Source: Opitutaceae bacterium (GTDB lineage: Bacteria; Verrucomicrobiota; Verrucomicrobiia; Opitutales; Opitutaceae). Taken from it: a stretch of DNA of 64,000 bases. Position numbers and translations under genes: made by a program. The notes beneath the pieces were generated by a model that saw nothing but the letters and a program-made list of their open reading frames with translations, did not search any database and had not been told where the DNA came from. Below are positions 3,691 to 34,026 of the stretch, in pieces (within the stretch, counting starts at the first letter, position 1; each line of letters starts with the position of its first letter). The stretch covers positions 1 to 64,000 of the forward strand of contig JAUSID010000168.1 in assembly GCA_030648295.1 (NCBI GenBank), in the 5' to 3' direction.

Positions 3691-4860
3691 CTAGCACGTG
3701 AGGGCTCGGAGTCCCGTCACGAGCCGGCCCATTCCCTCGCGCGCGGTGTCGCGCTGCAGCGCCCCGTAGGCGACGCGCAGGTGACAGCCGCGCTCCAGTC
3801 CAAACGCGTTGCCCGGGATCACCGCCACCCGGTGTTCGCGAATCAACCGCTCGGCCACCGCGAGCGACGGCACGCTGGTTCGCACCCGCAGCAGGAAATA
3901 AAACGCGCCCTGCGCCGGCGGCACCTCCATCACGCCGTCGGCGGATAGCGGCGCGAGTTCCGCCTGCACGACGCGCCTCACCTCGGTGATCGCGCCGAGT
4001 TTTTCCCGTACGAAATCGGCGCCGGCCGACAGCGCGCCGATGGCGGCATATTGCGAGATCACCGGCGGGCAAATGATCAGCGTGTCCTGAACCTTGCGCA
4101 TCGCCGGTTCGAGCGTCGCGGGGAACACGATCCAGCCAATCCGCCAGCTGGCGAACCCGTACGCCTTCGACATCGAGAAAAGCGAAATGGTGTGCGGTGC
4201 GCTCCCCGGCAACGATGCGGGGGAGAAATGCCTCGAGCCGTCGTACGTGAAATACTCATACGCCTCGTCGTGAAGGTGGAAAATTCCGCGCTCGGCGCAC
4301 AGTTCATTCACGGCCCGCAGCGATTCCATCGGGTATACGGCGCCAGTCGGGTTGTTGGGCGAAACCGTCACGATCGCCCGCGTTCGCGGCGTGATCGCCG
4401 CCCGTAGCGCGCCGACATCCAGCTGGTAATTCGAGTCCGTCGGCACCAGCACCGGCCGGCAGTTTGTCATCGTGACCGCCATCTCCTGGTTGAAGTAGTA
4501 CGGCGTGGGCAGGATGAACTCGTCGCCGGGATCGGCGATGGCGAGCACGGCGTTCATGAACGCCATGTTGCCGCCGGCGGTCACCATCAGCCGGTTGGTG
4601 TCGTCCAGCCGCAGCGCGTTTTCGCTGGTGAGTTTTTCGCCGATACGCGCCAGCAATTCCGGAATCCCGCCGACCGGCTGGTATTTGTGGTTGGCCGGTT
4701 CCGCCTGAAAACGTGCGATCTCACGGCTCACCTGCTCCGGCGGGCCATAACCGACCACTCCCTGCCCCAGCGAGATCGTGCCCGGACAGCTTCGTATCAG
4801 GTCGGCGATGATCGGAATGATGGGCGACTGGGTTGCGCGGAGCCGGAGCGATTCTTGCAT
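3691..4860 (-). CDS. Pyridoxal phosphate-dependent aminotransferase, class I/II
   Basis: ORF 3691..4944, likely start MQESLRLRATQSPIIPIIADLI; motifs NPNNPTGAVYP-type (VSPNNPTGAVY), HDEAYEYF, SMSKAYGFASWRIGW. Confidence 0.88.
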   Translation of the reverse strand: MQESLRLRATQSPIIPIIADLIRSCPGTISLGQGVVGYGPPEQVSREIARFQAEPANHKYQPVGGIPELLARIGEKLTSENALRLDDTNRLMVTAGGNMAFMNAVLAIADPGDEFILPTPYYFNQEMAVTMTNCRPVLVPTDSNYQLDVGALRAAITPRTRAIVTVSPNNPTGAVYPMESLRAVNELCAERGIFHLHDEAYEYFTYDGSRHFSPASLPGSAPHTISLFSMSKAYGFASWRIGWIVFPATLEPAMRKVQDTLIICPPVISQYAAIGALSAGADFVREKLGAITEVRRVVQAELAPLSADGVMEVPPAQGAFYFLLRVRTSVPSLAVAERLIREHRVAVIPGNAFGLERGCHLRVAYGALQRDTAREGMGRLVTGLRALTC

Positions 4861-4984
4861 GGGGCGATTCGCACGATGGCCGGCCGTCAGCAGTCCGTCA
4901 GCCCGAAACGATCCCGATTGAGTCCCTCCAATCCAGTAAACCACTCGTCACTCATGCCTTGATCCCCCGCCGCAAATCTCTCGG

Positions 4985-25379: not shown

Positions 25380-25415
25380 CGTGTTATGAAATGTCAAGTT
25401 GTTACCTATTCTCAC
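25380..25415 (-). promoter_or_regulatory. Candidate operator/promoter motif copy 1, upstream of deoR
   Basis: Minus strand: GTGAG-aataggtaacaac-TTGACATT-tcata-ACACG, 20 nt upstream of the deoR ATG; same gapped motif at 28224..28259. Confidence 0.55.
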
Positions 25416-25455
25416 GTGAACGAACATTGCCGGCCGGGCGAACTGACAGCGCCGG

Positions 25456-26799
25456 TCACCGCCCCGGCGGCGGGCCAAAACGTTGATGAAGCCGGACCAT
25501 TGCCCGAGCGGCCGCGTCAATGGTCGGATGAACGCCCGCGGCCGCCGCGGCGAACACCGCCGCCCCGAGGCACGCGCGTTCCGGCGAGGTCGACGTGACG
25601 ATGGGCGTCCCCATGACGTCCGCGGTGAGCGCGAGCCACGCCGCGTTGCGCGCGCCGCCGCCCGTTGCCGCAATGGTACGCGGCAACTGGCCGCGTGAAA
25701 TCCGGGACACGAGTTCGCGCTGGGCGAACGCCATTCGCTCCAGCAATGACCGCACGGCAGCTCCCTGTTGACCGGCAGCGGTGGCGGAGTCTGGCGCGGC
25801 GGCGGCCGTAGACCCGGCGGGCACTGTCGCCGCCTCGGCGATCAACTGGTCAATTGTCCGGCCTGGCGCAAAACGCCGCTGGTATTCCTCCAGCGCGCCC
25901 GCCCCATTGGGATTGAACGCGAGCCGATAGAATCGCCGCCCATCGAAATGGGGACCGTGAAAACATCCTGCGAGGTGCTCCACGCGGTCCACGAGGCACG
26001 TGGCCGCGAGCACGGTCCCGATCGAGATGCTCACATCGGCGAAAACATCCAGTCCCGCACCGATCGCCGCCGCATGATGATCCAGCGCGCCAACGGCGAA
26101 TGGAATTCCAGCCGGCACGCCGAGCAGCCGCGCGGCCTCGCTGCGCGTCCGACCGCACGGAGTTCCCGGCGGCAACGGCCTCGCCAGTCGTCCCGCCTCG
26201 ATCCCAAACCCGGTGAGCGCTTCATCCCACCACCGGCGGTCGTGGAGGTGGTAAAGCCCCAAGAGCGCCGCCGTGCTGGCGTCGCCCACCCGCTCGCCCG
26301 TCAGCGCATGGGTGAAATAATCCGAAATGGTCAGGACGCACTGCGCGCGGGCCCACTGCTCGCGCTCGTGGATCCTCCACCAATGCCATTTTGTTACCGC
26401 GGATTCCGCCGCCACCGTATTGAATCCGACCGCACGCGAAAACGCCGCCGAATTGGAGAACGCCAGATGCTCCGGCGCCGGCGCGGCCCGGGTGTCCGTC
26501 CAGAGAATCAGCGGTGACAGCGGCAGGTCGCCACGATCCAGCAGGATAAACGTATTGGCCTGGGACGAATAAGACATCCCGGCGATGTCCCGCGGTTCCG
26601 CGCCCGCTCGCGTCAACGCCTCCGAAAACGCGCGCCGCAGCAAGGCCCAGAATGTTTCGGCCCCAAGTTCGCTGCGACCAGGCGCGGGCGCGGAGGCTTC
26701 GACCGCCACCCGCCCGAGCCCGCGCAACGTTCCGTTTTCCTCGAAGAGGCCGACCTTGAAATACGACGTGCCAAGATCGACGCCGAGCAACAAGCGCAT
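25456..26799 (-). CDS. FGGY-family carbohydrate kinase
   Basis: MRLLLGVDLGTSYFKVGLFEENG; ATGGGARNAAWLALTADVMGTPIVTS; ERACLGAAVFAAAAAG. Confidence 0.88.
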   Translation of the reverse strand: MRLLLGVDLGTSYFKVGLFEENGTLRGLGRVAVEASAPAPGRSELGAETFWALLRRAFSEALTRAGAEPRDIAGMSYSSQANTFILLDRGDLPLSPLILWTDTRAAPAPEHLAFSNSAAFSRAVGFNTVAAESAVTKWHWWRIHEREQWARAQCVLTISDYFTHALTGERVGDASTAALLGLYHLHDRRWWDEALTGFGIEAGRLARPLPPGTPCGRTRSEAARLLGVPAGIPFAVGALDHHAAAIGAGLDVFADVSISIGTVLAATCLVDRVEHLAGCFHGPHFDGRRFYRLAFNPNGAGALEEYQRRFAPGRTIDQLIAEAATVPAGSTAAAAPDSATAAGQQGAAVRSLLERMAFAQRELVSRISRGQLPRTIAATGGGARNAAWLALTADVMGTPIVTSTSPERACLGAAVFAAAAAGVHPTIDAAARAMVRLHQRFGPPPGR

Positions 26800-26809
26800 G
26801 GCGGGACAA

Positions 26810-28150
26810 TTAAGCGCCGCGTGCGAGCAGCGCGAGCGTCGCCTCGACGAAGCGGTTTCCATTTTCCGGCGCGAACACCGCATTGAGCGCCTCATATCGT
26901 CGCTGCGCCGCGGCATCGGGCGTGACGATGTAGCCCTGGAGTTCGCCGTTCGCCAGCGTGATCAGGTGGGTGCGCGGCGAGCGTGCCTTGAGCGCGAGAG
27001 CATACTCCACGAAAAACTCGCCGGGCCAGCCGACGAACGTCCACGGCCCGATCCGAATCGCCTGGATCTCCGCGGGCGTTCGCGCCGCCAGCGCCGCTTT
27101 CAACCGGCCGTCGGCGGCGGCGCGCGCTAGCTCCGCGGTCTCCTCGGCCCCGAAAACATCACACTCGGCGGTGCGCACGGCGGGCGCAGCCGCACCTTCC
27201 GCCTTGAGCTCCCTGAAGCGCGCGCGCGCCCCGGCGAGCACGCGTTCGGCATCGCCGGGGCCGGGGAACGCGCGCGGCTCGAGTTCGACCCAGCCCTGCC
27301 GCGCGTCCACGCGCGCCTCCGTCGTGAACGAAATCGTCGCGATCGCCGACGCGATCGAGCGGCCGAGGTTTTCCCCGAGCCGTTGCGCCTCCGCCAGCGT
27401 GTTGCCGCGCGTGAAATGCCGCGGGCTCTGGTTTCCCGAAGCGCCGTTGTGATAGAGGATCGGGCAGCCGGCCGGCAGCGCGCCGCGCCGGAGGAAGCTG
27501 CGGGTGAAATGCGGAAAGTCGCCGCTGATCACGGTCGAGTCTTCATGCAGCACCGTCGGATGCATCGCATACACGACCATGCAGCCGAGCGGCTGCCGCG
27601 TCTTCACGCTGCGCGCGACGAGCACGGGAACCTCCGGATCGGCCGGGCCGCGCGGATCATGCCGGTTGGAACCGACGCCTTCCGCACGCGCAACCGCCAG
27701 TCCCACCTCCGCCGGTTCCGCCGCGGTGACCGCGCGGCTCGCCGTCTGCACGATGAGGTCGAGCAGCCGGGCGGCGTATTCGAAATCCGGTTTCGGCACG
27801 ACGGGATCGGCGGCGTTGCCGATCTGGTCCACCAGGACCGGGCCGGAGTGCGTGTGCGTGGCGCTCAGCAGAATGGCGTCCTCACGCACTCCCGTCTTCA
27901 CGGCGATTCGCCGCCGCGCTTCGAGCACCAGCTCGCGCGGCACGAATATCAGATCGTGGGCGAGGAAAAGCGCGGACGCCTCGCCGTCGCTGACGAACAG
28001 CGCCGTGCACTCGAGCGGATCGTGGACGCCCGTGCTGTTGCGCGGCACGTGCGGGTAGCCGAAGAGGAAAACCGATCCCGCCGGTGTGATGTCGGCGGTG
28101 GCTGCGCCCGCAACGAGCCCGGCGCGCGCGGAATCATGGGAGGAACTCAT
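26810..28150 (-). CDS. Neutral/alkaline ceramidase N-terminal domain-like protein
   Basis: AGAATADITPAGSVFLFGYPHVPRNSTGVHDPL...LFLAHDLIFVP...LLSATHTHSGP; EFFVEYALALKARSP. Confidence 0.75.
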   Translation of the reverse strand: MSSSHDSARAGLVAGAATADITPAGSVFLFGYPHVPRNSTGVHDPLECTALFVSDGEASALFLAHDLIFVPRELVLEARRRIAVKTGVREDAILLSATHTHSGPVLVDQIGNAADPVVPKPDFEYAARLLDLIVQTASRAVTAAEPAEVGLAVARAEGVGSNRHDPRGPADPEVPVLVARSVKTRQPLGCMVVYAMHPTVLHEDSTVISGDFPHFTRSFLRRGALPAGCPILYHNGASGNQSPRHFTRGNTLAEAQRLGENLGRSIASAIATISFTTEARVDARQGWVELEPRAFPGPGDAERVLAGARARFRELKAEGAAAPAVRTAECDVFGAEETAELARAAADGRLKAALAARTPAEIQAIRIGPWTFVGWPGEFFVEYALALKARSPRTHLITLANGELQGYIVTPDAAAQRRYEALNAVFAPENGNRFVEATLALLARGA

Positions 28151-28223
28151 CCGGAACGCCGCCGAAAGGACGGCAGCGGCCGACGCTCGGCAGCCCCCGC
28201 CTCGGACGCAAATGTTATTTTTT

Positions 28224-28259
28224 GTGAGAGTGTGTGGTTTCTTGACATTGGGTCACACG
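28224..28259 (+). promoter_or_regulatory. Candidate operator/promoter motif copy 2, divergent intergenic region
   Basis: GTGAG-agtgtgtggtttc-TTGACATT-gggtc-ACACG; identical fixed bases and spacing to 25380..25415. Confidence 0.55.
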
Positions 28260-28346
28260 TTTTGAAACTGCGCGGGTCGTGATCATTCCTTCTTCGCGGC
28301 CCAATTTCATCGTCGCCCACCGGCGCGGTGCCGATCGCAACCTCGC

Positions 28347-29744
28347 ATGTCGCTGATCCCCCCCCCCAACGTCGACGCGTTTTCCACGCTCGAATGGGGC
28401 CGCGTCGATCTCTCCCGCGTGCCCCACGTGCCGGTGCCGCCGCCCGGCCCGCTTTCGCGCGACCAGCACGCGCGCTGCACGCGCTACTTCAAGGGACTGA
28501 GCACCCAGGTGAAGCTGTTTCCCGTCGCCTTCGAGTCCGGCGCCGGCTGTGTCTTGCGCGACGTCGACGGCAACGAATACATCGATTTCTCCTCCGGGAT
28601 TTACGTGACCACCCTCGGCCATTGTCACCCGAAGATCAGCGAGGCGATTGCCCGGTCGGCGTCGCAGTTGATGAACGCACACGACTTCACCACGCCGATC
28701 AAGACGCGGCTGATGGAGAAACTCGCGGAGGTGCTGCCGGGCGACCTGACGGGATACCAGCTCTACGACTCCGGCACGACCGCGGTCGAAGCTGGCCTTC
28801 GCGTGCTTCGCGCCGCGACCGGAAAGCACGAGACCGTGAGTTGCTTCAACGACTATCACGGCAAGACCTACGGCGCGGTGTCGCTCGGCCACATCCGCTC
28901 GCACGTTTACGGCGCGGTGCGTGGCCCCGGCTCGCACATGGTGCCGCGGCCCGACCCGTATCGGCCGATGTGGACGAAGCCCGACGGGTCGATCGACACC
29001 GATCAGTACCTCAGCTTCTACGGCCAGTATCTCGACAAAGGCACGGTTGGCAGCGTCGCCGGTTTCGTGCTCGAGCCGATTCAGGGCTGGGGCGGCTCGG
29101 TCATGCCGCCGGACGATTTCTTCCCGAAGTTGCGTCGCTTCTGCGATGCGCGAAAAATCCTCCTCATGGCCGACGAGGTGCTCACGGGCTGGGGCCGCAC
29201 CGGCAAATGGCTGTGCCTCGAGCACTGGGGCGTCGTTCCCGACGTGGTCACGATCGGCAAGGGCTTCGGTAATGGGTTTCCGGTGACGTGCGTCGCGGTG
29301 CGGGAGCCGTTCAAGGAGAGTTTCGAGTCGATTTCCGCCTCCAGCAGCTACGGCGGCAATCCGATGGCCTGCGCCGCCGCACTCGCCGCCACGGAGGTCA
29401 TCGAGGACGAAGGATTGCTGGCCCATGCCGAGACGCTGGGCGAGATCGCGTTGCGCCGGATGCAGAAGATTCGCGACGCCCACAAGATCGTGGGCGACGT
29501 TCGCGCCAAGGGCTGCCTCATGGGCATAGAACTGGTCAAGGATCGCACCACGAAGGAACCGTTCGATCATGCCGGCACGCTCGTGTACCAGAAAGCCTTC
29601 CGGAAGGGCCTCGCCTGGATTCCCGCCGGCCACATCCTGCGGATGAGCCCGCCGATCGTGATGGATGAGGATACGCTGCTGAAGGGACTCGACCTCATCG
29701 AGGAAGCGATTGGCGAAACCGCGCGCGAGCTCGGCTACAGCTGA
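28347..29744 (+). CDS. Class III PLP-dependent aminotransferase
   Basis: GNEYIDFSSGIYVTTLGHCHPKISEAI; LLMADEVLTGWGRTGKWLCLEHWGVVPDVVTIGKGFGNGFPVTCV. Confidence 0.92.
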   Translation: MSLIPPPNVDAFSTLEWGRVDLSRVPHVPVPPPGPLSRDQHARCTRYFKGLSTQVKLFPVAFESGAGCVLRDVDGNEYIDFSSGIYVTTLGHCHPKISEAIARSASQLMNAHDFTTPIKTRLMEKLAEVLPGDLTGYQLYDSGTTAVEAGLRVLRAATGKHETVSCFNDYHGKTYGAVSLGHIRSHVYGAVRGPGSHMVPRPDPYRPMWTKPDGSIDTDQYLSFYGQYLDKGTVGSVAGFVLEPIQGWGGSVMPPDDFFPKLRRFCDARKILLMADEVLTGWGRTGKWLCLEHWGVVPDVVTIGKGFGNGFPVTCVAVREPFKESFESISASSSYGGNPMACAAALAATEVIEDEGLLAHAETLGEIALRRMQKIRDAHKIVGDVRAKGCLMGIELVKDRTTKEPFDHAGTLVYQKAFRKGLAWIPAGHILRMSPPIVMDEDTLLKGLDLIEEAIGETARELGYS

Positions 29745-29992: not shown

Positions 29993-30940
29993 ATGAAAAA
30001 ACAGCCCGCCCGGTTCACGTATGCGCCCGCGGAATTCATCCCGTTCCGCGATCGGACGGTGATTGAACGCATCCGGAAGATCAAAAAGGAAGACATCACG
30101 AAGCACTGGAATCCGGCGTTCAAGATCACCGTCATCCCGGATGCCGACGTGGAATTTCTCTGGATGACGGAGATGTTCTCGCGGATCAAAACCGCGATGG
30201 AAGCCGGCCAGCCGCTCGTGATGATCATGCCGAACCCGTGGCCGAACTACCGGCGGCTCGCGTTCCTGATTAACAAGTTTCGCGTGAACTGCCGGCGGCT
30301 GTACACGTTCAATATGGACGAGTACGCGAACGAGAAGGGCGAGATTGCGCCCGAGACCTGGGAGTTCGGGTTCATGCACGCGTTCAAGAAATACTTCTGG
30401 TCGCAGATCGATCCGAAGCTGCGGCCGCCGGAAAAAAACATCCAGGGGCCGACCGACCGGAACATCAGGGACTACGGCCGGATGATCGCGGACCGCGGCG
30501 GCGCCGACGTGTGTTACAGCGGCCCGGGCTGGGCCGGCCACCTCGCCTTCATCGATCCCAACGCGCCAGAGTTCGCGGCCGCCACGCTCGAGGAGTGGAA
30601 GCAAATGGGTCCGCGCGTGTGCACGCTGCACCCGCTGACCATCGCGCAAAATTCGCTCCACGGCAGCTTCGGCATGAGCGGAGATCTCGCCGCCGTCCCG
30701 CCCAAGGCGGCGACGATCGGTCCCGCCGAGGTGATCGCGACGAAGCATCGCCTCGACATTCACGCGATCACGATCGACGGCTCCTTTGCGTCCTGGCAGC
30801 GGTTCACGACCCGTCTCGCCCTGCACGGGCCGGTCACGCCGCTCGTGCCGCAATCGATCCTTCAGACGCTCCGTACCGACGTCTGGGTTTCGGAATCCAT
30901 CGCCGAGAACATCGAACCGCGCTGGGACAAGGGCTATTGA
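29993..30940 (+). CDS. Glucosamine-6-phosphate isomerase (NagB)-fold homologue with altered active site
   Basis: RRLYTFNMDEYANEKGE (NagB NMDEY motif) and GPGWAGHLAFIDP aligning with NagB GVGNDGHIAFNEP. Confidence 0.75.
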   Translation: MKKQPARFTYAPAEFIPFRDRTVIERIRKIKKEDITKHWNPAFKITVIPDADVEFLWMTEMFSRIKTAMEAGQPLVMIMPNPWPNYRRLAFLINKFRVNCRRLYTFNMDEYANEKGEIAPETWEFGFMHAFKKYFWSQIDPKLRPPEKNIQGPTDRNIRDYGRMIADRGGADVCYSGPGWAGHLAFIDPNAPEFAAATLEEWKQMGPRVCTLHPLTIAQNSLHGSFGMSGDLAAVPPKAATIGPAEVIATKHRLDIHAITIDGSFASWQRFTTRLALHGPVTPLVPQSILQTLRTDVWVSESIAENIEPRWDKGY

Positions 30941-31935
30941 GCGACGCCCCGCGATCCGCCGTGCTCATCGACGTTCACAATCATCTCGGCGCGGACCTCT
31001 TCTTCTATCTCAACGGTTTCTATCCCTATGCGCAGGATTTGCCGGCGCTGGTGACCGAGGGTCGCCGGCACGGGATCGATCGCTGGGTGGTGTTCCCGAT
31101 GGTGGCGAATGCGTGGTTCGATCCCGCGGCGATGCGACGCGGCCAGCTTGTCCCCGGCGGACCCGAAAAGGTGCCCTACGCCTTCGAGAATGAGCGGATG
31201 CTCCGCGAAATCTACGAACAGTTTCCGGACTTCGGCCGGTTGACGCTGCCGTTCGTCATGTTCGACCCGATGCGCGAACCGGCGGCGCAGGTCGAGCGGC
31301 TCCGCGAACTGTACTGCGAGTTCCCGTTCCATGGGCTGAAACTCCAGGCGACGATGATCCAGTCCGACGCCGGTGCGCTGCTCGGCGCCGGCCGCTGCCT
31401 GCTCGAACTCGCCGCGGAACTGGATCTGCCGCTCCTGATCCACTCGAGCGTGGCGGCCAACGATCCCTGGTCCGCAGCCGGCCTGCTGCTGCGCATCGCG
31501 ACGTCGGCGCCGCACCTGCGCTTCTGCCTCGCCCACAGCTGCCGGTTCGATCGCGAATACCTCGATCGCGTGGCGGAGCTGCCAAACACCTGGTTCGATT
31601 GCTCCGCGCACCGGATCCACTGCGAGGGCGCGGTGCGCGGGATGCCGTTCATCGCCGCGCCGGCCCGGCGCTTCGCCGCCGATTATCGCGACCCGACCGC
31701 GGTGCTCCGCGCGCTCGCCGCGACGTATCCAGAAAAACTGATCTGGGGATCGGACACCCCGTTCCAGAGTTTCGTCGCGAAGGAGCCCGAGGGGCTCGTT
31801 TCGCTCCGCAGCACCTACGCGGAGGAGATTGGCTGTCTCCGCGCGCTGCCGCCGCCGGTGCAGGCCGCCATCGCGCACGACAACACCCTCGCCTTTCTGC
31901 GGCTAAAAGATCCCGCGATCCTGTCGCGCGACTGA
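30937..31935 (+). CDS. Amidohydrolase-family (TIM-barrel) metal-dependent hydrolase, probable TTG start
   Basis: VLIDVHNHLGADLFF (HxH), HGLKLQATM, LPLLIHSS, LIWGSDTPFQSF; TTGA overlap with the upstream stop; ORF track extends upstream in an unrelated frame. Confidence 0.82.
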   Translation: MSDAPRSAVLIDVHNHLGADLFFYLNGFYPYAQDLPALVTEGRRHGIDRWVVFPMVANAWFDPAAMRRGQLVPGGPEKVPYAFENERMLREIYEQFPDFGRLTLPFVMFDPMREPAAQVERLRELYCEFPFHGLKLQATMIQSDAGALLGAGRCLLELAAELDLPLLIHSSVAANDPWSAAGLLLRIATSAPHLRFCLAHSCRFDREYLDRVAELPNTWFDCSAHRIHCEGAVRGMPFIAAPARRFAADYRDPTAVLRALAATYPEKLIWGSDTPFQSFVAKEPEGLVSLRSTYAEEIGCLRALPPPVQAAIAHDNTLAFLRLKDPAILSRD

Positions 31936-31995: not shown

Positions 31996-34026
31996 ATGCC
32001 CAGCCTTCATCCTCTCGATTACGTCATCCTCGCGGCCTACTTCGTTGTCCTGATTGTCCTCGGCAAGGTTTCGGCCAAGCACGCGAAGACCGGCGAAGGT
32101 TTTTTCCTCGCCGGCCGCAAGCTCGGCAAGCTCTACCAGTTCTTCCTCAACTTCGGAAACTCCGTCGCCGCCGCCGACACCGTCAGCACGTCGAGCCTCG
32201 TCTACCAGCACGGCGTCTCCGGCGTGTGGGTCGGGTTCCAGATGATTTTCCTGAACCCGTATTACTGGTTCATGTTTCCGTGGTATCGGCGCGTGCGACT
32301 GACGACGATGGCCGATATCTTCCAGGATCGGCTCGGCAGCCGCCCGCTCGCGCTTTTCTATGCCAGTTTCCAGATCGTCATGGCGGTGGCGGTCTCCATG
32401 GCCTTCGGCAACCTGGTCTCGTACAAAATCTCCGCCGCCCTGGTGACGAAACCCGAGGCCACGTGGACCCAGGGCGAAGCGCAGTCCGTCAGCGGTTATC
32501 GCGAACTCACCCGCCTCGAGAACACGAGGCGCGAGCGGCCGTTGTCGGAACCGGAACAGGGCACGCTCGGCTCCCTGCGCGAGCGGCACACGCGCGGCGA
32601 GTTGAACAACTACGTCACCGCCCTCGAACCGTGGTCCTTCTACATCGTCTACACCCTCGCGGTCGGAATCTACATCGTGCTGGGCGGCATGACTGCAACC
32701 GCGCTCAACGAGTCTTTTCAAGGTGTGTTGATCCTCGTGTTCTCGGTCATCCTGATCCCGGCGGGACTGGCTGCGATTGGCGGCTGGCACCAGCTCGGTG
32801 CGACACTGCCCGACGCGAAACTCAATCTGTTCGGCGCGACCGGCGTGTCGGACTTCACCGGCTGGACGATCGCCGCCGTGTTCTTCGCCACGATTCTCCA
32901 GGCGCACGCGATGCCGCACAACATGAGCATCGCCAGCTCGGCCCGAAACGAATTCGCCGCGCGGTTCGGTGCGGTGGCCGGCACTTTCGGCAAGCGGATC
33001 GTCACGATCATGTGGGCGTTCTGCGGGCTGATCGCGATCGTGATGTTCTCCGGCCCGAACACGCTCGCCGATCCCGACACGGTCTGGGGCACGATGTCCC
33101 GGCAGCTGCTCGGGCCGGGGATGCTCGGCTTGATGCTCGCCGGCGTGCTCGCGGCCAACATGTCGACCGTCGCGGCGCAGGCCATGGCGGTGTCGGCGCT
33201 CTTCGCGCGCAACGTCTACGCGAGCTTCCGCCGCGATGCGACCGATGAAGACGTAGTGCGCGCCGGCCGCCGCACGCTTGTCGTCGTCCTCATCCTCGGC
33301 GTGCTCGTCGCGACCAAGCTTTCCGATGTCTACACCGTCCTCCAGTTCGCGATGACAATCAACGTGCCCTTCGGCGCGTCGATTCTGCTGATGTTCACCT
33401 GGCGCCGCCTCACCGCGCCCGCGGTGTGGACCGCCGTGATCGGCTCCGCCCTGCTCAACATCGTGTTTCCGCTCGTCGCCCAGAATATCCCGGCCCTGCG
33501 CGATCATCCCGCGCTGACGGTGCGCGCGACAGACGCGAACGGACGGCCGCTCGCAGTTTATTTCGAGTCGGTCATCCGCTCCGACTCCAGCAACCCGAAC
33601 AGCCCGCTCCAGGGCCGCGGCCGGCTGCATACCGAATTGCTCGTGCTGCGCGCGGTCGGGGTCGACGTCGCGGGCTTTTCGCCCGGCGGCCGTCTCGCCG
33701 GCCGGTTCCTCGTCGATGCGCTCGTGCCGCTCGTCCTTCTCTTTGGCGTCAGCCTGGTGACACGTGCGCCCGATCGCCGGCTCGTCGAGCAGTTCTACGG
33801 CAAAATGAAAACGCCGGTGGCACCGACGCCCGAACAGGATGTAATCGCAGTGGAGGAAACGCGACGCGACCCCGGCCGTTTCGATCATCAGAAGCTCCGC
33901 CCGAAATCATCGTGGGAGTTCACGCGATGGGACGCCACCGACACGATTGGTTTCGCGGTCAGCTGCCTCGTGACTCTCGTGATCATCGGTGCCTTTCTCG
34001 GTCTGCTGCAACTGGTCCGGATTTGA
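31996..34026 (+). CDS. Sodium:solute symporter (SSS) family transporter
   Basis: DYVILAAYFVVLIVLGKVSAKHAKTGEGFFLAGRKLGKL, multiple TM segments, TDEDVVRAGRRTLVVV. Confidence 0.9.
   Translation: MPSLHPLDYVILAAYFVVLIVLGKVSAKHAKTGEGFFLAGRKLGKLYQFFLNFGNSVAAADTVSTSSLVYQHGVSGVWVGFQMIFLNPYYWFMFPWYRRVRLTTMADIFQDRLGSRPLALFYASFQIVMAVAVSMAFGNLVSYKISAALVTKPEATWTQGEAQSVSGYRELTRLENTRRERPLSEPEQGTLGSLRERHTRGELNNYVTALEPWSFYIVYTLAVGIYIVLGGMTATALNESFQGVLILVFSVILIPAGLAAIGGWHQLGATLPDAKLNLFGATGVSDFTGWTIAAVFFATILQAHAMPHNMSIASSARNEFAARFGAVAGTFGKRIVTIMWAFCGLIAIVMFSGPNTLADPDTVWGTMSRQLLGPGMLGLMLAGVLAANMSTVAAQAMAVSALFARNVYASFRRDATDEDVVRAGRRTLVVVLILGVLVATKLSDVYTVLQFAMTINVPFGASILLMFTWRRLTAPAVWTAVIGSALLNIVFPLVAQNIPALRDHPALTVRATDANGRPLAVYFESVIRSDSSNPNSPLQGRGRLHTELLVLRAVGVDVAGFSPGGRLAGRFLVDALVPLVLLFGVSLVTRAPDRRLVEQFYGKMKTPVAPTPEQDVIAVEETRRDPGRFDHQKLRPKSSWEFTRWDATDTIGFAVSCLVTLVIIGAFLGLLQLVRI

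Follow-up and report, generated by a model that had tools for sequence, protein, structure and literature searches.

The 64,000-nucleotide stretch analysed here (the window) carries two closely matching sequences in separate promoter regions, one just upstream of a deoR gene and the other between a ceramidase-like gene and a divergently transcribed aminotransferase gene. The question raised by this locus is whether both are operators of the DeoR protein encoded beside the first of them. An earlier note had described an exact gapped motif, GTGAG-N13-TTGACATT-N5-ACACG, at 25380-25415 on the minus strand and at 28224-28259 on the plus strand, with spacers matching at 5/13 and 1/5 positions; the motif and both spacer counts were reproduced, as was the distance of 20 nt between the former copy and the deoR ATG (25359). 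The note had seen no third full copy, and this holds for the entire genome to which the window belongs (an assembly of 9.1 Mb in 294 contigs, 96.6% complete): at 0-1 mismatches only these two copies occur. A scan allowing for more mismatches, which the note had proposed, gave as next best two places at 2 mismatches, and the matches with 2-3 mismatches are scattered. In the window, shuffled sequences lead one to expect 0.02 matches at ≤3 mismatches.

The features of the locus are collected in Table 1. The deoR product possesses the N-terminal HTH_DeoR domain (PF08220; E 1.2e-12, 47.8 bits against a cut-off of 21) and the C-terminal DeoRC domain (PF00455; E 6.5e-45, 153.4 bits against a cut-off of 31.8) by which the family is defined, and the stretch DNGTT is present in its sensor domain. 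The nearest NCBIfam models are GlpR_Halo and AgaR, both under cut-off. The cluster's NagB-like enzyme recalls amino-sugar catabolism, as would be in keeping with AgaR (NF040755), but the window protein, at 169.4 bits, stays under the 260-bit cut-off of this model. The NagB-like protein itself is under every curated cut-off and has no Pfam match at 0.001; since it is 64-88% conserved across the clusters of relatives, it probably represents a distinct subfamily. The ORF at 30940-31935, also part of the rightward operon, has no NCBIfam match, and its start (DVHNHLG) resembles by eye that of a metal-dependent amidohydrolase.

Table 1. Features of the deoR locus, in window coordinates
Feature	Position	Strand	Remarks
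deoR, DeoR/GlpR-family repressor, 262 aa	24571..25359	-	HTH_DeoR and DeoRC sensor domain
Operator 1 (predicted)	25381..25427	-	ATGTTC-N5-CGTGAG-N13-TTGACA-N5-TAACAC; 21 nt upstream of deoR ATG
TTGACA, inner right half-site of operator 1; candidate deoR -35	25392..25397	-	Invariant in site alignments
FGGY carbohydrate kinase	25456..26799	-	PF00370/PF02782; downstream of ceramidase-like gene, order kept in relatives
Neutral/alkaline ceramidase-like gene	26810..28150	-	PF04734, E 2e-13; divergent from aminotransferase
Operator 2 (predicted)	28212..28258	+	ATGTTA-N5-TGTGAG-N13-TTGACA-N5-TCACAC; divergent ceramidase/aminotransferase intergenic region
TTGACA, inner right half-site of operator 2; candidate aminotransferase-operon -35	28242..28247	+	Invariant in site alignments
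GAAACT, weak -10-like hexamer	28264..28269	+	16 nt after TTGACA; A2 and T6 present
Class-III aminotransferase, first gene of rightward operon	28347..29744	+	PF00202, E 1.2e-90
NagB-like (glucosamine-6-phosphate deaminase-like) gene	29993..30940	+	TIGR00502, E 1.3e-11, under cut-off
Sodium:solute symporter	31996..34026	+	PF00474, E 5.1e-27; probably in rightward operon

Phylogenetic footprinting of deoR upstream regions, also proposed in the earlier note, revealed that the element is kept in relatives. When the 180 nt upstream of deoR were aligned for 13 loci (the window's own and 12 loci in 11 relatives, the proteins being 72-82% identical), the flanks had diverged and a single gap-free block of 47 bp was retained 19-23 nt before the deoR start codon. 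Its consensus is ATGTTA-N5-TGTTCG-N13-TTGACA-N5-TAACAT, an imperfect palindrome of four half-sites in which two direct-repeat arms face each other. Each arm consists of ATGTTA/C followed by TGTTC/TGTCA, and in the 13 aligned sites ATGTTA and TGTTC are 10 bp apart, within the 10-11 bp period of direct-repeat operators. The dyad axis lies at column 24 (mean match probability of 0.443 versus ≤0.344 for other axes). Since the facing arms are built of 10-bp direct repeats, the four half-sites would lie on about one face of the helix. The length of the spacer differs by one in two sites, that of the aminotransferase in relative G022 (48 bp in total) and that of locus L109 (46 bp), and the phasing of the half-sites is therefore not absolutely fixed.

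The gapped motif is thus a partial view of this larger element. Its three fixed blocks occupy columns 13-17, 31-38 and 44-48, and the outer left half-site, ATGTT, ca. 10 nt further upstream and identical in both window copies, had been missed. The two 47-bp copies in the window are identical at 30/47 positions. When the non-coding segments of the cluster were shuffled 200 times, 0.5% of the shuffles attained this value, and in the actual sequence the most similar pair has 31/47. Taken alone, the similarity of the pair is only modestly unusual (ca. 0.005) and too weak for the claim, and the case is therefore made by comparison across species.

A weight matrix trained only on the deoR sites of relatives, when applied to the window, gave its highest score to operator 1 (42.4 bits) and its second highest to operator 2 (34.9 bits), with -2.0 bits for the next place not overlapping these. 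Genome-wide, a sequence-only model (R2) built from 16 sites of relatives recovered operator 1 at 28.5 bits (E 1.5e-5) and operator 2 at 21.4 bits (E 0.0027), and gave no other match at E ≤ 10 across the 9.1 Mb. The 15 columns which are invariant among relatives show 0 mismatches at both operators and nowhere else in this genome, all other matches having two mismatches; the backwards control gave 0.

The element travels with the repressor gene. When the DeoR protein was used to search 99 relatives, the 12 loci in 11 genomes mentioned above were found, after which identity dropped to <40%. With model R1, which includes the window's own sites, scores of >19 bits were found only in the 11 genomes with a deoR orthologue, the other 88 relatives reaching ≤17.5 bits. 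A held-out set was drawn from a separate scan of GTDB genomes and comprised five loci from Opitutaceae and other Verrucomicrobia MAGs (L103, L104, L105, L107 and L109), none of which was used in training; L106 and L108, shown by their training sites to repeat G004 and G056, were left out. The site was present just upstream of deoR in 5/5 of these, with the spacer of L109 one base shorter, and in the same scan DeoR homologues at 30-39% identity had no such site at deoR. A conserved operator at the gene's own promoter, as expected of autoregulation, is accordingly found at the 13 deoR loci and in the entire held-out set, and at least 16 related bacteria have the element next to this repressor gene. 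The earlier note had held that many genomic copies, or a lack of conservation in relatives, would speak against a DeoR operator; neither was observed.

The cognate protein of a true operator could be another one, either a DeoR paralogue or a different factor linked to the cluster. The genome encodes at least three further DeoR homologues (32-37% identity), and co-occurrence is also compatible with another regulator travelling with the cluster. We nevertheless consider this quite improbable: the site tracks this particular orthologue (12/12 relative loci, 5/5 held-out), more distant DeoR homologues are without it, the gene order of the cluster is otherwise variable, and a second deoR in G022, on a separate contig, has a site of its own (L039:9551-9597). 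Immediately after this second gene comes a gene for a TonB-dependent receptor, resembling that which adjoins deoR in the window.

As to gene order, most relatives have kinase - ceramidase - operator - deoR - aminotransferase, with one operator common to the divergent genes. A close aminotransferase orthologue lies near deoR in 10/11 relatives; the 11th, G026, is represented by a 3.9-kb contig which ends inside deoR and displays the left part of the usual order. Separation of deoR from the aminotransferase is seen in the window and in G022, where the site is present at both promoters, the second (aminotransferase) site of G022 being that with the longer spacer. L104 has the layout of the window, with one site at deoR and another between aminotransferase and ceramidase. 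An operator copy is kept at both promoters in G000, G022 and L104, operator 2 has positional counterparts in the latter two, and in the window, G022 and L104 the same operator is found at the linked ceramidase/aminotransferase promoter, as expected of a regulon. A different split is seen in G032, where the ceramidase gene is away from deoR and has its own site upstream (L100:1501-1547, corresponding to G032:C2:11811-11857). This site keeps ATGTTA/TGTTCA/ACA/TAACAT and reads CTCACA instead of TTGACA; neither deoR nor the aminotransferase was seen in the direction in which TTGACA would point. A 424-aa ORF of G022, uroporphyrinogen-decarboxylase-like by eye, also has a weaker operator-like site close to its start (L101:1501-1540; C22:621696) and is possibly an unlinked member of the regulon.

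The window's split layout probably arose by rearrangement. Such an origin, the single operator between ceramidase and deoR in most relatives and the modest pairwise similarity would all agree with a recent duplication (for example, deoR moved with a copy of its promoter) or with chance resemblance, there being no maintained shared site. The spacers have diverged with the half-sites kept, however, and G022 and L104 likewise have sites at both positions, which leaves this explanation with a negligible probability. A shared origin of the two copies is possible, but their maintenance needs selection.

Since the element is palindromic, it might instead act as a hairpin in a transcribed leader rather than as a DNA site. 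The 5-nt stretches between the half-sites pair in 36% of cells, no better than in slid controls, and in the half-site pairs it is the letters that are conserved, with no more than 2 double-changed cells. With TTGACA as the -35, the element would moreover be upstream of the transcript. Because the bases between the half-sites do not covary, the hairpin is disfavoured, and for lack of covariation support we rejected it as extremely improbable.

The inner right half-site requires separate consideration. TTGACA is invariant in 15/15 aligned sites and in 6/6 held-out sites, and in every case it lies on the coding strand of the gene that follows, whereas the half-site mirroring it varies (TGTTCG, TGTTCA, CGTTAG or TGTGAG). 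A -10-like A-N3-T is found 16-18 nt after TTGACA in 10/15 sites (shuffle mean of 1.2) and at the corresponding position in 3/6 held-out sites (p 0.016), both counts coming from related and hence dependent sequences. At the deoR site of the window the -10 match is poor (GACAAC, no T6), and a scan for standard consensus sigma-70 promoters found no pair in the region. The CTCACA of G032 is a natural control, although a single one, and suggests RNA polymerase as the source of the extra constraint upon TTGACA. TTGACA likely serves as a -35 and, if this is right, deoR transcription would start near its start codon.

It could be argued that the element is a promoter and nothing else, in which TTGACA is the -35 and the rest of the shared bases are upstream promoter context. 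TTGACA is indeed the most strictly conserved hexamer and always aimed at deoR or the aminotransferase, and a weak -10-like sequence follows it in the majority of sites. But strong conservation extends to the outer and inner left half-sites (ATGTTA and TGTTC), which lie 14-30 nt ahead of TTGACA and form a mirror image of the right side, the relocated ceramidase site of G032 keeps its half-sites without TTGACA, and strong sites occur solely with a deoR orthologue. We therefore regard a promoter alone as very improbable. The earlier note had considered two readings, an operator for autoregulation by DeoR or a promoter containing a -35, and the evidence favours both together: across genomes the element accompanies deoR orthologues, and it recurs at the ceramidase/aminotransferase promoter where this is split from deoR, and the orientation of its invariant hexamer agrees with an embedded -35.

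Judged from these comparisons of sequence, it is highly probable that both copies are operators of the window's DeoR, which would regulate its own gene and control the catabolic operons, with TTGACA likely doubling as the -35. In the absence of inducer a DeoR oligomer would cover the 47-bp element; from the number of half-sites, four, this would be a pair of dimers or a tetramer, as in the B. subtilis DeoR, which belongs to a different family (SorC). As the inner right half-site would be the -35 of the downstream gene, the bound repressor would block RNA polymerase. At operator 1 this would result in autoregulation of deoR, and at operator 2 in repression of the aminotransferase operon and, on the other side, of the divergent ceramidase-kinase operon. 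The effectors of DeoR-family regulators are typically phosphorylated pathway intermediates (PMC12632272), and binding by DeoRC of such a compound, which the FGGY kinase may produce, would release the repressor. The kinase gene is predicted to belong to the regulon by way of operator 2.

The half-sites of E. coli GlpR and DeoR are TGTTCG and TGTTAGAA, and their operators are palindromes shorter than the present one, of which a promoter often has several. The protein family (DeoR/GlpR) and the half-site core TGTT(A/C) are common to those systems and the present one, whereas the element described here joins both types of half-site in one long palindrome. The predicted motifs of RhaR, a DeoR-family regulator of rhamnose catabolism, consist of two imperfect direct repeats with a period of 10-11 bp (PMC3870299). 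RhaR resembles the present case in being a local, sugar-type regulator and in a repeat period matching that of each arm; it differs in its target genes, and the present element has a pair of such arms in facing orientation, with four half-sites in 47 bp. In C. bescii, 12/12 LacI- and DeoR-family regulators examined have sites in 5' UTRs or overlapping promoter elements, which was read as repression (PMC8579813). The B. subtilis DeoR binds as a tetramer, a dimer of dimers, to a 39-bp operator at -60 to -21 which overlaps the -35 region (PMC11229326). A like overlap is predicted for the element studied here, but despite its name that protein is not of the DeoR/GlpR family, and its operator is asymmetric.

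These findings do not change the general picture of gene regulation; the type of circuit is ordinary, and the two-armed geometry a modest, somewhat unusual variation. They do provide, for Opitutaceae-like Verrucomicrobiota, a well-supported and directly testable predicted regulon (one repressor, two operators and no third copy in the genome examined), and they join as one pathway an unnamed catabolic cluster of FGGY kinase, ceramidase-like hydrolase, class-III aminotransferase, NagB-like enzyme and sodium symporter. The operator geometry, together with the natural splits of the cluster, makes this a clean case for separating the constraints due to a repressor site from those due to a -35. Literature searches found no paper combining DeoR, Verrucomicrobia and operator, and nothing on direct repeats of GlpR, AgaR or UlaR. 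A bolder proposal, which we put forward tentatively and consider doubtful, is that the element defines a distinct class of DeoR/GlpR operator, with two facing arms of 10-bp repeats, an inner half-site fused to the -35 and a bound tetramer, that the number of arms evolved across phyla, a single arm being found in locus L110, and that the class controls an undescribed ceramidase-like/kinase/aminotransferase/NagB-like pathway.

L110 comes from a Planctomycetota MAG with the same gene set and a DeoR 53% identical to that of the window. The arm, ATGTTCGTTTGTGTTAG, lies upstream of deoR (4860-4876) without a facing arm or TTGACA, and a TAGTAT hexamer overlaps with its end. The NagB-like gene contains a second match resembling an arm (2333).
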